Shown piece after piece: positions 49,970 through 55,696 of a DNA stretch of 64,000 bases. Numbering within the stretch: position 1 is the first letter of the stretch; each line of letters opens with the position of its first letter. The stretch is taken from contig JAJSLK010000014.1 in assembly GCA_021272165.1 (NCBI GenBank), positions 1-64,000 on the forward strand, read 5' to 3'. The notes beneath the pieces were generated by a model. That model was not told where the DNA came from. It did not search any database and worked only from the letters and a program-made list of their open reading frames with translations. The translations under genes and the position numbers were made by a program. This stretch comes from Methylacidiphilales bacterium. Its GTDB lineage: Bacteria > Verrucomicrobiota > Verrucomicrobiia > Methylacidiphilales > UBA1321.

Positions 49970-50008
49970 GAGTTACGGAATTACCAAATGGGCCAAATTA
50001 ACGGAATG
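49970..50008 (+). repeat. Left inverted repeat of GxxExxY cassette 1
   Basis: GAGTTACGGAATTACCAAATGGGCCAAATTAACGGAATG; 33/39 identity to the reverse complement of 50433-50471. Confidence 0.9.
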
Positions 50009-50435
50009 AGGAATGGAGGTTGGGTGGCTCCTGCTGAGCGGGATAGGTTCTGGTTTTGGTCTTAAATTCCAGGCTCGAAGCCCCAAAGTTCAGAAGCAAG
50101 CCATCCTCAATGCCAGTGGCAGCGGGATAGTTAACCAATTGAGCCGAATGGGCCGTGTTAAGTGCGTCGACAGCTTTTAGTTCGATAATCAGACGCTTTT
50201 CCACAATAAGATCGGCTTGAAAAAGTCCCACTTCAACATCCTCGTACATAACGGGGAGGGCAACGTGGCAGTCGAAAGCGATGGGAGTATTGCGAAATTC
50301 CACCATCAAAGCGTTGCGGTATACCGTCTCCGCAAAGCCGTGACCAAGGGTGCGATGCACCTTCATCGCCAAACCGATGATCCGCCGGGCAAGCGGATTT
50401 TGCGATTTTTGCATGGGAAACACCCGGTTTTTCAT
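49998..50435 (-). CDS. GxxExxY (PD-(D/E)XK-like) protein, cassette 1
   Basis: LGHGFAETVYRNAL; nuclease-like ADLIVEKRLIIELKAV; MKNRVF start codon overlaps the first 3 nt of the right IR and stop lies inside the left IR. Confidence 0.88.
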   Translation of the reverse strand: MKNRVFPMQKSQNPLARRIIGLAMKVHRTLGHGFAETVYRNALMVEFRNTPIAFDCHVALPVMYEDVEVGLFQADLIVEKRLIIELKAVDALNTAHSAQLVNYPAATGIEDGLLLNFGASSLEFKTKTRTYPAQQEPPNLHSSFR

Positions 50436-50471
50436 TTCGTCAATTTGGTCCATTTGGAAATTCCGTGATTC
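50433..50471 (-). repeat. Right inverted repeat of GxxExxY cassette 1
   Basis: Reverse complement GAATCACGGAATTTCCAAATGGACCAAATTGACGAAATG. Confidence 0.9.
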
Positions 50472-50485
50472 AGTTCGAAATCGAG

Positions 50486-51064
50486 TCACCCCTGGTACTT
50501 TAGCAGTAATTCGTCCGCCTTGACGTTGCTGACGTCCTCGTAGAAATCGTCGTTAATCATGATGACTGGCGCGGTGCCGCAGGCGGCGAGGCATTCGACG
50601 AACTCGACCGAATATTTGCCATCGGGGCTGGTGGCGAGGCCATGGGCGTCCGGCTCGCCGACGTTGCACTTCTTGCGGAAGTAATCGCAGAGGGCATAAC
50701 CGCCGCCGAGGGCGCAGGAAAGCGTCCGACAGACCTTGATCTGGATTTTGCCCGCCGGATGCTGGCGGAACATTGGGTAGAAGGTCACCAGTTCGAGAAT
50801 ATTGATTGGCTGCAGTTCCAGCTTCGCCGCAATCCATTCGATGCCTTCCGGTGAAACATAGCCGAATTTCTCCTGCCAGAGATGGAGCAGCGGCAGTGAC
50901 GCGCTCCGCTTCGATACCGGGTAGTGGGTGATGACTGTATCAACCTCGGCTTCGAAATCCTTCGGGATGACCGGCGCGGGATGATGGGAATCGTGCGCGC
51001 CGGGATAGACCGCTTCCGGCGGAATATTTTGCGTGGCAGGGACAGTGACGCGATTGATGCTCAT
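50486..51064 (-). CDS. nuoE: NADH-quinone oxidoreductase subunit E
   Basis: ALPLLHLWQEKFGYVSPEGIEWIAAKLELQPINILELVTFYPMF...KVCRTLSCALGG...VEFVECLAACGTAPVIMIND. Confidence 0.95.
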   Translation of the reverse strand: MSINRVTVPATQNIPPEAVYPGAHDSHHPAPVIPKDFEAEVDTVITHYPVSKRSASLPLLHLWQEKFGYVSPEGIEWIAAKLELQPINILELVTFYPMFRQHPAGKIQIKVCRTLSCALGGGYALCDYFRKKCNVGEPDAHGLATSPDGKYSVEFVECLAACGTAPVIMINDDFYEDVSNVKADELLLKYQG

Positions 51065-51339
51065 GACTTGGCTCCGGGGACAAACTCCGCCTTAAAGACG
51101 GCATGGTTGAGGAAAGTAACGCGGCCTTCGCCCTGGGAGGCCGGATAATGATCAACTTCACCGGTCAGAAGTTGATCGGCAGTCTCCGACTGGTCGATAT
51201 GCGCCGGACGACCCAGAATTGCCTCGACCTGGTCGGAAGTCATGCCGGTCTTGATCTGGGCCATCTTGTCCGGCGTGACGGCGGAGGAACAGGCGGTCAA
51301 GGCCAGGGCGGTTCCGATAAAAGGCAGGCGCGAGATCAT
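51061..51339 (-). CDS. SmpA/BamE-like lipoprotein (2)
   Basis: Lipobox LTAC; PDKMAQIKTGMTSDQVEAILGRPAHI; 4-nt overlap with nuoE start. Confidence 0.75.
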   Translation of the reverse strand: MISRLPFIGTALALTACSSAVTPDKMAQIKTGMTSDQVEAILGRPAHIDQSETADQLLTGEVDHYPASQGEGRVTFLNHAVFKAEFVPGAKS

Positions 51340-51611
51340 TTAAACTGGCCCTCCGTCGCAATGACCTTGTCGTTGAGAAAGGTGATTTTAACGTCCGAAC
51401 TGCCGCTATGGTAGCTGTAGGTCGTGCCGGTGATGCCCAGCGCGCCCGATGATTCCGTTTCGGACGGAGGTCCCAGGATCGCCTTCACTTCATCGGTCGT
51501 CATGCCGTTGTGGATTTTCTCCAAGTTGGCCTCGGTCAGTCGGGAACAGCCGGCCAGCAGCACAACCGCCGCGGTGATGAGAGCGAGGCGGCAGGCGGTC
51601 ATCGGTCGCAT
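51336..51611 (-). CDS. SmpA/BamE-like lipoprotein (1)
   Basis: Lipobox LAGC; LTEANLEKIHNGMTTDEVKAILGPPSETESSGALG; overlaps nuoD 3' end and the next gene's start. Confidence 0.78.
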   Translation of the reverse strand: MRPMTACRLALITAAVVLLAGCSRLTEANLEKIHNGMTTDEVKAILGPPSETESSGALGITGTTYSYHSGSSDVKITFLNDKVIATEGQFK

Positions 51612-52849
51612 TCTCCCATGACGAAATCGAGGCTGCCCAGAATGGCGACCACGTCGCTCATCATGTGGCCGGGCAGGAGTTTCGAAAGAATGCTCAGATT
51701 GACGAAGGAAGGGGCGCGGATTTTCAGGCGGTAGGGAACGCCGCCGCCCTTGCTCATGATATAGAAGCCAAGTTCGCCCTTCGGATTTTCCGCGCCGAAA
51801 TAAACTTCACCTTCCGGAGCCTGAATGCCTTCCGTGACGAGGATGAACTGATGAATCAGCTCTTCCATCTTGGTGAGGACTTTCTCCTTCTTGGGCAGGA
51901 AACCTTTGCCGTCGCCGACATTGATCGGCCCGCTCGGGATGTTCCGCAATGCCTGTTCAAGGATGTGCGTGCTTTGGCGCAGTTCCTCCAGCCGGCAGAG
52001 GAAGCGGTCGTAGGCGTCGCCGACCGAGCCGGTCGGAATGGAGAAGCTGTACTCGGAGTAATTGAGGTAGGGCTTGTCCTTGCGCACGTCGTAGGAAACG
52101 CCCGAGCCGCGCAGATTGGGACCGGTCAGGCCGAAATCGATCGCATCCTCCTTCGTGATATAACCGATGCCCTTGTTACGATCGACGAATATCTTGTTGC
52201 GGGTCAGCAGGCGGTCGAGCTCGTCGATCTTGCCCTTGAACTGCTCGACGAAGGCCTTCGCCTGGTCGACGAATCCGGGCGGCAGATCGCGAATCTGGCC
52301 GCCGATGCGCGTGTAGCTCGTGGTGAAGCGGGCGCCCGTCAGCAGCTCGATCAGGTTATAAATCTTTTCGCGCTCGGTGAAGATGTAGAGGAAGACGGTC
52401 ATGGCGCCACAATCCATGGCCAGCGCGCCCATGCCAAGCAGGTGCGCCGAGATGCGGGCCAACTCGCAGCAGATCACGCGAATGACCTGGCCGCGGGGAG
52501 GAACCGTCCAGCCCATGAGCTTTTCCACCGCGAGCGAATAGGCGACGTTGTTGGCCAGTGGCGCCAGGTAATCGAGCCGGTCCGTGTAGGGCACGAACTG
52601 GTTGTAAGTCATGTTCTCGGCGATTTTTTCGTCGCCGCGGTGGAGGTAACCGATATCCGGAATCGCGCGGATGACGATTTCGCCATCGAGTTCAAGCACC
52701 ACGCGCAACACGCCATGCGTGCTGGGATGGGACGGGCCCAGGTTCAGGATGAGCTTTTCACCCATCTCGCCGATCTTCGTCTGGGCGTGCTCGAACTGCT
52801 GCGCCGCGCGCGTCACGCTGTCGGGTGTTTCAATGATCGTCTCAGGCAT
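51599..52849 (-). CDS. nuoD: NADH-quinone oxidoreductase subunit D
   Basis: LNLGPSHPSTHGVLRVVLELDGEIVIRAIPDIGYLHRGDEKIAE; C-terminal AILGSLDFVMGECDR; start corrected to MPETIIET. Confidence 0.97.
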   Translation of the reverse strand: MPETIIETPDSVTRAAQQFEHAQTKIGEMGEKLILNLGPSHPSTHGVLRVVLELDGEIVIRAIPDIGYLHRGDEKIAENMTYNQFVPYTDRLDYLAPLANNVAYSLAVEKLMGWTVPPRGQVIRVICCELARISAHLLGMGALAMDCGAMTVFLYIFTEREKIYNLIELLTGARFTTSYTRIGGQIRDLPPGFVDQAKAFVEQFKGKIDELDRLLTRNKIFVDRNKGIGYITKEDAIDFGLTGPNLRGSGVSYDVRKDKPYLNYSEYSFSIPTGSVGDAYDRFLCRLEELRQSTHILEQALRNIPSGPINVGDGKGFLPKKEKVLTKMEELIHQFILVTEGIQAPEGEVYFGAENPKGELGFYIMSKGGGVPYRLKIRAPSFVNLSILSKLLPGHMMSDVVAILGSLDFVMGECDR

Positions 52850-52858
52850 ACAAATTTG

Positions 52859-52885
52859 GACAGAATTAACAAGATTAACAGGATT
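52859..52885 (+). repeat. Left inverted repeat of GxxExxY cassette 2
   Basis: GACAGAATTAACAAGATTAACAGGATT; 25/27 identity to the reverse complement of 53322-53348. Confidence 0.9.
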
Positions 52886-53321
52886 GGGAGCCAATTAGCT
52901 CGGAGATTTCGCGGTCACGGGGAAGATCAAGTGTCCGACTCTTTCTTTTGAACTCCAAACTTTTTGTTCCGAAATTTAAGAGCAGTCCGGTTTCAATTTT
53001 AGTGGCGGTAAGATAGTTCACCAACTGGACCTCATGAGCTGAGTTAAGTGCCGAGACAGCCTTGAGCTTCAAAATAAGCCTTTCTTCGACAATAAGATCG
53101 GTCGCAAAATCTCCAATGATTTCACCTTCAAAATAAACAGAAAGCGGTTTTTGGCTTTCAACCTTCAGCCCGAGCTTTCTTAGACGAATGAGCAAGGCAT
53201 GATGATAAATCGACTCCAAAAAACCTGAGCCCAGAGTACGGTGAACATACATGGCTTCGCCAATGACCTTTTGGGTTAATGGATCAACCTGAGTTGAAGA
53301 TTTAGCCAAGGTTGGAAGCAT
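52875..53321 (-). CDS. GxxExxY protein, cassette 2 (degenerate nuclease motif KLK)
   Basis: LGSGFLESIYHHALL; TDLIVEERLILKLKAVSALNSAHEVQLVNYL; ATG abuts right IR, stop in left IR. Confidence 0.88.
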   Translation of the reverse strand: MLPTLAKSSTQVDPLTQKVIGEAMYVHRTLGSGFLESIYHHALLIRLRKLGLKVESQKPLSVYFEGEIIGDFATDLIVEERLILKLKAVSALNSAHEVQLVNYLTATKIETGLLLNFGTKSLEFKRKSRTLDLPRDREISELIGSQSC

Positions 53322-53348
53322 AATCCTGTAAATCTTGTTAATCCTGTC
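53322..53348 (-). repeat. Right inverted repeat of GxxExxY cassette 2
   Basis: Reverse complement GACAGGATTAACAAGATTTACAGGATT. Confidence 0.9.
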
Positions 53349-53354
53349 AAAAGT

Positions 53355-53960
53355 TCAGATGCTGGCGGGGTTGGCGCGGGGTTCGCGGGTGGTCGTGGGC
53401 GCTTCGCCGATTTTCGGCGGCTTTTCCGCTGGCGCGGCGACGAAGGGACCACCTTCCAGCGGGGCGGGACGGCTGAAGGCCTCGCCCGGCATATCACTGG
53501 GAAGGCCTTCCAGCGGGAAATCCTTGCGGAGCGGATAATAGGGATAACCCTCCCACATCAGGATGCGGCGCAGGTCGGGATGGCCGGCGAAACGGACTCC
53601 CATCATGTCGTAGACTTCGCGTTCATGCCAGTCGGCGCCCTGAAATACCGATATGATGGAATCGACCGAGGCGTCATCCTCGCTCACCTTGACCTTGAGG
53701 CGAACATGCTCCTGATCCCGCGGGCCACCGAGCGCGCAAAATTCGTAAACAACTTCATACCGCGGTTCGTTGCCGAAATGGTCCACCGCGGAAATATCGA
53801 GGAGCAGGTTGTAGCCGAGGTCGTTCTTGAGATAAGCCGAGGCGGCGCGGATGATCTCGCGGTCGACCTCAACGCTCGATTCGCCGCGAAATTCCTTCGC
53901 CTGACCGACCTTGCCGGGAAATTGTTTTTGCAGAAGTGCGATAGCGTCTGTGGCGGACAT
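53355..53960 (-). CDS. nuoC: NADH-quinone oxidoreductase subunit C
   Basis: MSATDAIALLQKQFPGKV...DWHEREVYDMMGVRFAGHPDLRRILMWEGYPYYPLRKDFPLEG; start at 53960, not 54221. Confidence 0.95.
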   Translation of the reverse strand: MSATDAIALLQKQFPGKVGQAKEFRGESSVEVDREIIRAASAYLKNDLGYNLLLDISAVDHFGNEPRYEVVYEFCALGGPRDQEHVRLKVKVSEDDASVDSIISVFQGADWHEREVYDMMGVRFAGHPDLRRILMWEGYPYYPLRKDFPLEGLPSDMPGEAFSRPAPLEGGPFVAAPAEKPPKIGEAPTTTREPRANPASI

Positions 53961-54650: not shown

Positions 54651-55025
54651 ATGGAAAGAAAGGGCTTCGTTGCTGTTTTTGAGACCGTACTCGACCGCAA
54701 ACTGGTTTCCGAGTGCGTCGGCTCGTGGCTGGAGCGGTTCGAAAAAGTCGAGCAGGTGATTCCCAGCATGGCCGGCACCCTGGAGGTCAAAAAGTCCGAC
54801 GAGATCATGTGGGAACCTCATCTCCAGTTCCGCGTCCTCAACGGCGAGCAGTTTTCCTGGGTTTACGTTTCCCTCGACAGCCGCGCCATGGAAACCACCG
54901 GCTTTCAGGACGCCGAAATCTCCTTCTGCCTCGAAGTCCTGCTTGAGCTGCCCGATGTCGCCGAGGTCATCGACGAAAAGAACCAGCGCCGCCTGGGCGA
55001 ACTCGAAAAGGCGGGGATTATTTGA
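54651..55025 (+). CDS. Hypothetical protein, 124 aa
   Basis: MERKGFVAVFETVLDRKLVSECVGSWLERFEKVEQVIPSMAG...; 3' end overlaps the convergent PIN gene by 8 nt. Confidence 0.6.
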   Translation: MERKGFVAVFETVLDRKLVSECVGSWLERFEKVEQVIPSMAGTLEVKKSDEIMWEPHLQFRVLNGEQFSWVYVSLDSRAMETTGFQDAEISFCLEVLLELPDVAEVIDEKNQRRLGELEKAGII

Positions 55026-55455
55026 CCTCGTTCAGATCGATCCAGTCGAGTTTCTTGAATCGGCTGAATCCTTGATCGAAGCTTACCAACCGAGCTTGGG
55101 CAAGTTGCGCAAAGGCGGCCAAGTAGGCATCCATCCAAAGATGCGTCGACGGTTTCTCTGCCGAGGCCAACTCAAACCAGAGAGGCTCGAGATTTGCAGG
55201 TTCTTCCTGCCATGAGATTCGTTCGTGGCGCATGAACTCGCAAAATACCCGTGTGGCACGGGAATTCGTCATCGCCACGTCTCTGAAGATGGCCGTATTG
55301 GTGCTGAGACGGAGAAAACCTTGCTGTGTTACCCGGCAAAAAAGCGCAATATCCGATCCGTGAAGGCGGTCGAACCATGAACGTGCCTTGCCATGATGCT
55401 CGTGATTAATTAAGGAAAGCGCCAGCCAGACGTTAATGTCGCAAAGAAGCTTCAT
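55018..55455 (-). CDS. PIN-domain VapC-like toxin
   Basis: MKLLCDINVWLALSLINHEHHGKARSWF...STHLWMDAYLAAFAQLAQARLVSFDQGFSRF. Confidence 0.85.
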   Translation of the reverse strand: MKLLCDINVWLALSLINHEHHGKARSWFDRLHGSDIALFCRVTQQGFLRLSTNTAIFRDVAMTNSRATRVFCEFMRHERISWQEEPANLEPLWFELASAEKPSTHLWMDAYLAAFAQLAQARLVSFDQGFSRFKKLDWIDLNEVK

Positions 55456-55696
55456 AACGCTCGCGATCTTCGCTTTCGTCCATGCGATGAACAATATCGT
55501 TAGGAACTTTGATCGTGCCCGCCTTTTTGTCACCCCAAAGCGGCAGTTTGACTACCTTTTTTCGGCTGGTGCCCTTTTGCCGTAGAGACTGGCGAATGGC
55601 ACTTTCCACCAAATCTCGGAAACGGATGCCTTTTAGCGCCGCCTGCGCTTTGGCCTGGCGAAAAAGCTCATCATCCAAATCAACCGTGGTTCGCAT
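55433..55696 (-). CDS. VapB-like RHH antitoxin
   Basis: MRTTVDLDDELFRQAKAQAALKGIRFRDLVESAIRQSLRQKG; 23-nt overlap into the PIN gene start. Confidence 0.83.
   Translation of the reverse strand: MRTTVDLDDELFRQAKAQAALKGIRFRDLVESAIRQSLRQKGTSRKKVVKLPLWGDKKAGTIKVPNDIVHRMDESEDRERYEASLRH

Follow-up and report, generated by a model that had tools for sequence, protein, structure and literature searches.

A GxxExxY gene between inverted arms and dispersed hairpins with the same arms: a probable RAYT/REPIN-like system built on an unrelated nuclease

The junction between nuoC and nuoD in a genome of the order Methylacidiphilales is filled by an element in which a gene of the GxxExxY family lies between two inverted arms. 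Our analyses suggest that the element probably belongs to a gene-plus-cognate-hairpin system, which would resemble RAYT/REPIN systems in its working while being built on an unrelated nuclease. The system would have two parts: (i) a gene, passed on vertically, that encodes a Cas4/RecB-like PD-(D/E)XK nuclease (GxxExxY) and is set between inverted arms, and (ii) a population of short hairpins that bear the same arms without the gene and are dispersed between genes. In the literature searched we found no description of flanking arms or cognate hairpins of GxxExxY genes, and searches for the arm sequences as text in papers gave no relevant match.

An Element with Inverted Arms Fills the nuoC–nuoD Junction

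The DNA analyzed here, referred to as the window, is a stretch of 64,000 nucleotides. The features under study are as follows:

52852..53355, minus strand: whole element, ~504 bp, filling the nuoC–nuoD junction (sequence and repeat search)
53322..53355, minus strand: 5′ inverted arm, tandem units (GACAGGATT)(AACAAGATT)(TACAGGATT), beside the start codon (inverted-repeat search)
52875..53321, minus strand: GxxExxY/PDDEXK_3 ORF, 148 aa (profile matches, motifs, AF2 model)
52852..52885, minus strand: 3′ inverted arm, with the TAA stop inside, 2 nt short of the nuoD ATG (sequence, repeat search)
51599..52849, minus strand: nuoD, host gene downstream (ORF, nuo operons of relatives)
53355..53957, minus strand: nuoC, host gene upstream (ORF, nuo operons of relatives)
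About 49975..50466, minus strand: paralogous element at the nuoE–nuoF junction, ExK intact (profile and repeat searches)
49975-50008 and 50433-50466, minus strand: arms of the nuoE–nuoF element (ACGGAATTNCCAAATGGNCCAAATTNACG) (repeat search)

A preliminary description of this DNA had noted that positions 52859-52885 match the reverse complement of 53322-53348 at 25 of 27 positions, and that the ATG (53319-53321) abuts one arm and the TAA (52875-52877) lies within the other; both statements can be read directly from the sequence. The repeat search gives arms of 34 nt (52852-52885 and 53322-53355) that are 88% complementary and form the longest inverted repeat within the surrounding 3.5-kb region. 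The element occupies the gap between its host genes completely, with the nuoC stop codon touching 53355 and the nuoD ATG at 52849. Allowing up to three mismatches, the 26-nt nuoC/D arm occurs at only two sites in the 64-kb window, with none expected from 100 shuffles, and window shuffles together with displaced-flank controls ruled out a chance origin of the arms. The cassette described earlier at nuoE–nuoF proved equally real in profile and arm searches. However, the claim that the repeats of the two cassettes are unrelated found no support, as the arms of both consist of tandem 8- to 9-nt units. The window's genome (G000, 88 contigs) contains three GxxExxY genes, all on the same contig (C42); two are the nuo copies and the third lies at position 69939, beyond the window.

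Two further features were observed in the surroundings. Between nuoD and nuoE (51061-51611 in the window, and in relatives) lie one to four small SmpA/lipoprotein-like ORFs, the number of which varies within the genus. Upstream of the nuo genes, at 55018-55696, inspection of ORF translations by eye pointed to a possible VapB/PIN-type toxin–antitoxin pair.

The GxxExxY Protein Has a Cas4/RecB-Like Fold

The nuoC/D ORF scores 134.5 bits against the TIGR04256 GxxExxY profile (cutoff 35) and 129.8 bits against PF13366 PDDEXK_3 (cutoff 22). These were its only matches in Pfam and NCBIfam scans, which revealed neither an HUH/Y1 (IS200/IS605-type) tyrosine transposase domain nor an S23 four-helix-bundle domain. 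The AF2 model of the ORF (pLDDT 87) matches Cas4 SSO0001 best among PDB structures, followed by lambda exonuclease, at modest TM-scores; a PDB sequence search with the GxxExxY profile gave no match. The GxxExxY protein is a Cas4/RecB-like PD-(D/E)XK-fold protein and a putative nuclease. Its relatives number at least 574 in a multi-phylum scan and come from many phyla, while tblastn searches with the protein found no match in phages and seven on plasmids, all below 60% identity.

The family motifs are GxxExxY, D, ExK, and QxxxY, and the nuclease residues are nearly invariant in the 112 proteins compared. The first position of ExK is Glu in 108 of these, Asp in three, and Lys in one, the nuoC/D copy of the window (LILKLKAV), in which the D...ExK motif is thus not intact. 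Unless the Lys base is an assembly error, this copy is predicted to be catalytically dead.

The nuo Copies Are Old

Within the window's genus, a GxxExxY unit occupies the nuoC/D junction in G000, G001, G002, and G004 (G numbers denote the genomes compared). No gene is present in G003 or G006, where 23 and 41 nt, respectively, separate nuoC from nuoD, and in G005 and G007 the junction contains inverted-repeat units without a gene. At the nuoE/F junction, G000, G002, G004, and G007 carry a unit, as do G010 and G011 of another genus; G003, G006, and G009 do not. In the protein tree, all nuoC/D copies group together (SH-aLRT 96), as do all nuoE/F copies (82), the two groups being neighboring clades. 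The two cassettes had been called independent, which the tree refutes: their proteins form sister clades, each vertically inherited within the family. The same tree rules out a recent move of the two nuo copies, and the pattern points to old vertical inheritance with losses. The GxxExxY ORF is under purifying selection. Among the nuoC/D orthologues dS is saturated and dN is 0.12-0.24, i.e., far below dS, and the 5′ nuoC/D arms of G000 and G002 are identical at 26 of 27 positions despite the saturated dS.

At the nuoB/C junction of relatives, four loci (L079, L080, L082, and L083) hold a different small ORF, probably encoding a membrane protein (MKALPMLDHV... in several). This ORF, which in most cases has the same 3′ arms behind it, is a possible alternative cargo.

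The Arms Recur across Phyla and Diverge with the Protein

Flanking arms were tested at 65 loci of the order and at 75 usable loci from the multi-phylum scan, which covered SAR324, Geobacter, Cyanobacteria, Bacteroidota, Planctomycetes, Acidobacteria, Chloroflexi, Sphingomonads, one methanogen bin, and others. In the broad set, arms at 62 of the 75 loci lay above the maximum of 58 displaced-flank controls. In the order-level set, 41 of the 65 loci lay above 99% of a cross-locus null, which is conservative because arms are common to several loci. Across 106 elements, the ATG is found a median of 4 nt past the 5′ arm and the median span is 472 bp. Each arm is built from two to four units repeated in tandem every 8-9 nt. 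One GxxExxY gene (L128, G008:C56:516167-516517) has a 121-nt imperfect inverted repeat, far longer than those of the other elements.

Arm similarity correlates with protein identity over all pairs (r = 0.39, P ≤ 0.002, Mantel test) and among pairs from different genomes with less than 60% identity (Mantel r = 0.35, P ≤ 0.002), compared with r = 0 for the outer-flank control. In the broad-phylum set alone the trend was weak (Mantel r = 0.12, P = 0.08) because that scan sampled mainly one subfamily. Part of this codivergence can arise simply from the physical linkage of arm and gene within a unit. The preliminary description had proposed that arms should flank other GxxExxY genes and that their sequence should track the protein subfamily; arms are indeed present in relatives and across phyla, and the tracking was borne out. 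Its suggestion of a general element class is likewise supported, with a preference for extragenic sites.

Inverted arms within an operon could also act at the RNA level, as in the 23S rRNA intervening sequence (IVS). Base pairing of the arms in the polycistronic mRNA would then offer a substrate to RNase III or another double-strand ribonuclease, which would free the nuo messages from the ORF. Such an element would fit the orientation of the units, which agrees with that of their neighbors at 61 of 69 codirectional junctions (crude ORF calling), and the complementarity kept in orthologues, as in four concordant changes between the nuoC/D arms of G002 and G004; moreover, RNase III cuts the 28-bp terminal stem of the Coxiella IVS (PMC4990558). 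However, selection for an RNA stem predicts more G·U- than A·C-type mismatches on the sense strand, and the reverse was observed (78 vs. 113, a mild excess of the A·C type, P = 0.014), which disfavors the stem reading and leaves IVS-like selection unsupported. In addition, 8 placements are antisense and 40 divergent or convergent, the gene-less hairpins of G020 and G010 described below occur in all or most strand configurations, and the loci scanned contained no tRNA or Rfam gene (20 loci for Rfam). We consider an RNA-level element quite unlikely. In the gene-plus-hairpin system, a promoterless ORF relying on read-through could explain the co-orientation with the operon.

Gene-less Hairpins Share the Arms of GxxExxY Genes

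Arm-specific patterns revealed inverted pairs between genes, ~65-170 bp in length, that have the same arms as GxxExxY genes and lack the gene; the occurrence of such hairpins elsewhere in the genome goes beyond the preliminary description. Arms of the ACAGGATT type are found throughout the window's genus, and CACGGAT arms number 163 in G020, 169 in G033, and 67 in G012. The G020 CACGGAT hairpins span ~65-150 bp and have the ends TTTAACC...GGTTAAA. A reading of CACGGAT hairpins as terminators was rejected, as the sequence past the stem (GGTTAAAA) is an A-run, not a U-run. Hairpins lie inside ORFs much less often than expected (6 of 20 and 3 of 12, against 17.6 and 10.3).

The arm variants of hairpins and genes were compared genome by genome, and in several genomes the hairpins carry the variant of the resident gene. 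Among the arms listed, 100 of 100 from G010 begin GACGAAATT, as does its nuoE/F gene, and those of G007, G002, and G005 are mostly GACGGAATT. T-type ATAGGATTAATATGATT arms number 20 in G001 and 16 in G004, both with T-type nuoC/D arms, as compared with 0 in G000 and 2 in G002, both with C-type genes. The unusual CCAAAT arm variant of G000 recurs as a hairpin in that genome.

Arm numbers also differ with the gene. G010, which has the nuoE/F gene, contains 141 arms, compared with 5 in its sister G009, which does not have it and is 95-96% identical in the nuo region. Hairpins differ in presence at orthologous junctions: when G010 hairpins were aligned to the corresponding G009 junctions, none of eight was intact in G009. 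Half a 3′ arm was found at one of these sites, so some G009 absences reflect decay rather than empty sites, and the contrast may reflect gain in G010 or loss in G009. No target-site duplication was visible at these eight loci, the flanks of which are eroded, and a simple insertion sequence with target duplication found no support, none being seen in comparisons of G020, G033, G030, and G025 or of G010 and G009. Across 12 family genomes counted by hand, the genome with the nuoE/F gene had more arms than the one lacking it in 33 of 36 pairs.

Some genomes do not fit. The 34 C-type arms of G006 and the 163 CACGGAT arms of G020 come from assemblies (91% and 92% complete, respectively) in which no cognate gene was detected; G033, a relative of G020, has a gene of the CACGGAT type. 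For the nuoE/F type, G005 (65% complete) and G001 each have ~30 arms and no nuoE/F gene. Missing contigs, recent loss of the gene, or another mobilizing source could account for such genomes, which are the main weakness of the gene-plus-hairpin proposal.

Two other forms of arm were observed. In G000, unpaired single 3′ arms lie directly upstream of the start codons of ordinary genes (L065, L068, L071, and L072), the start-proximal arm alone being kept, as if it were leader sequence. In G010, a further inverted repeat (AATCAGGAACTCAGGAAAGCAGGAA...) is nested inside many hairpins (L367-L402), with a sequence conserved between copies, which suggests a recently spread family.

The genomes with hairpins and no gene bear on a reading in which MITE-like elements carry the GxxExxY ORF as a passenger and owe their movement to an unrelated enzyme or to slippage during replication and repair. 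S23 genes bracketed by arms of the same type, the different small nuoB/C ORF followed by the same 3′ arms, and the conserved interiors of the G010 hairpins, which by eye seem not to be gene derived, could all be accommodated by it. It accounts poorly, however, for the codivergence of protein and arm across genomes, the match of hairpin variant to resident gene, the G009/G010 contrast, and a gene under purifying selection with near-invariant nuclease residues in 112 proteins; we think it unlikely. Less probable still, and in our view improbable, is a nonmobile regulatory or chromosome-organizing system, in which the protein would bind dispersed hairpins and affect expression or repair while the hairpins disperse by other means. 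The ancient vertical inheritance of the nuo copies, the extragenic placement, and the loss of the catalytic Glu from the otherwise intact window copy would be in keeping with such a role, but hairpin numbers differ greatly between close genomes, and the catalytic residues are almost invariant in the other copies.

A Proposed Gene-plus-Hairpin System and the S23 Genes

In the gene-plus-hairpin system that we favor, the GxxExxY protein would recognize its own arm sequence and cut or process the arms in DNA, leading to the copying or dispersal of hairpins with cognate arms; hairpins would thus be gained through the action of the gene. If so, a large protein family so far named by a motif alone would acquire a function and a partner DNA, and a set of short intergenic repeats would be explained. 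It would also represent a second, unrelated enzyme family with a REPIN-like lifestyle, implying that long-lived gene-plus-hairpin populations arose more than once. The sister genomes G009/G010 and G020/G033 provide material for testing the relation of gene to hairpin.

At the PF05635 loci of relatives (L144-L172), S23/23S-rRNA-IVP genes lie at ordinary loci with inverted arms on either side. The period of these arms is strictly 7 nt (autocorrelation 0.68 at 7 and 0.70 at 14), and the S23 proteins are predicted four-helix bundles with no nuclease domain. Because S23 genes have the same layout without a nuclease domain, the chemistry need not reside in the ORF product. Tentatively, GxxExxY elements and S23 elements (the classical 23S rRNA IVS among the latter) could be two branches of one undescribed class, although we lean against this. 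The class so conceived would comprise a small protein gene, arms of family-typical unit length (8-9 vs. 7 nt), and hairpins dispersed in trans. Were it one class, environmental bacteria would owe many of their short intergenic repeats to a shared source, and the chemistry would perhaps be partly host supplied.

Comparison with Known Systems

The elements share with insertion sequences and MITEs their inverted terminal repeats and short gene-less copies. However, the GxxExxY ORF has no known transposase domain, no target-site duplication was found, and the gene copies are few and old rather than many and nearly identical. The 23S rRNA IVS is similar in being ~430-500 bp long, with terminal inverted arms and one small ORF, and the tandem heptamers that precede the S23 ORF in the Coxiella IVS (PMC4990558) resemble the 7-nt units around the S23 genes of relatives. 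In contrast, the GxxExxY elements encode a different protein family, have 8- to 9-nt units, and show no RNA-stem signature, and the element described here lies between protein genes, at the nuoC–nuoD junction, not in an rRNA gene.

The closest parallels are with RAYT genes, which are flanked by two inverted REPs, coevolve with them, and correlate with the abundance of cognate REPs (PMC2817692), and which are single-copy, vertically inherited genes that duplicate REPINs (PMC8049555). As in that system, one gene lies between two inverted repeats with which it codiverges, cognate short inverted-repeat hairpins are dispersed extragenically, inheritance has long been vertical, and single arms occur as apparent remnants. 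Hairpin abundance goes with the gene in some genomes: the association is strong in G010/G009, G011, G008, and the G000-G004 variants, and G006, G020, and G005 are exceptions. The arms differ from REPs in being arrays of 8- to 9-nt units rather than small palindromes, and the protein is Cas4/RecB-like PD-(D/E)XK with no HUH/Y1 transposase. Since it is not a tyrosine transposase, the system is not a member of the RAYT group; as far as sequence can show, it works like one.
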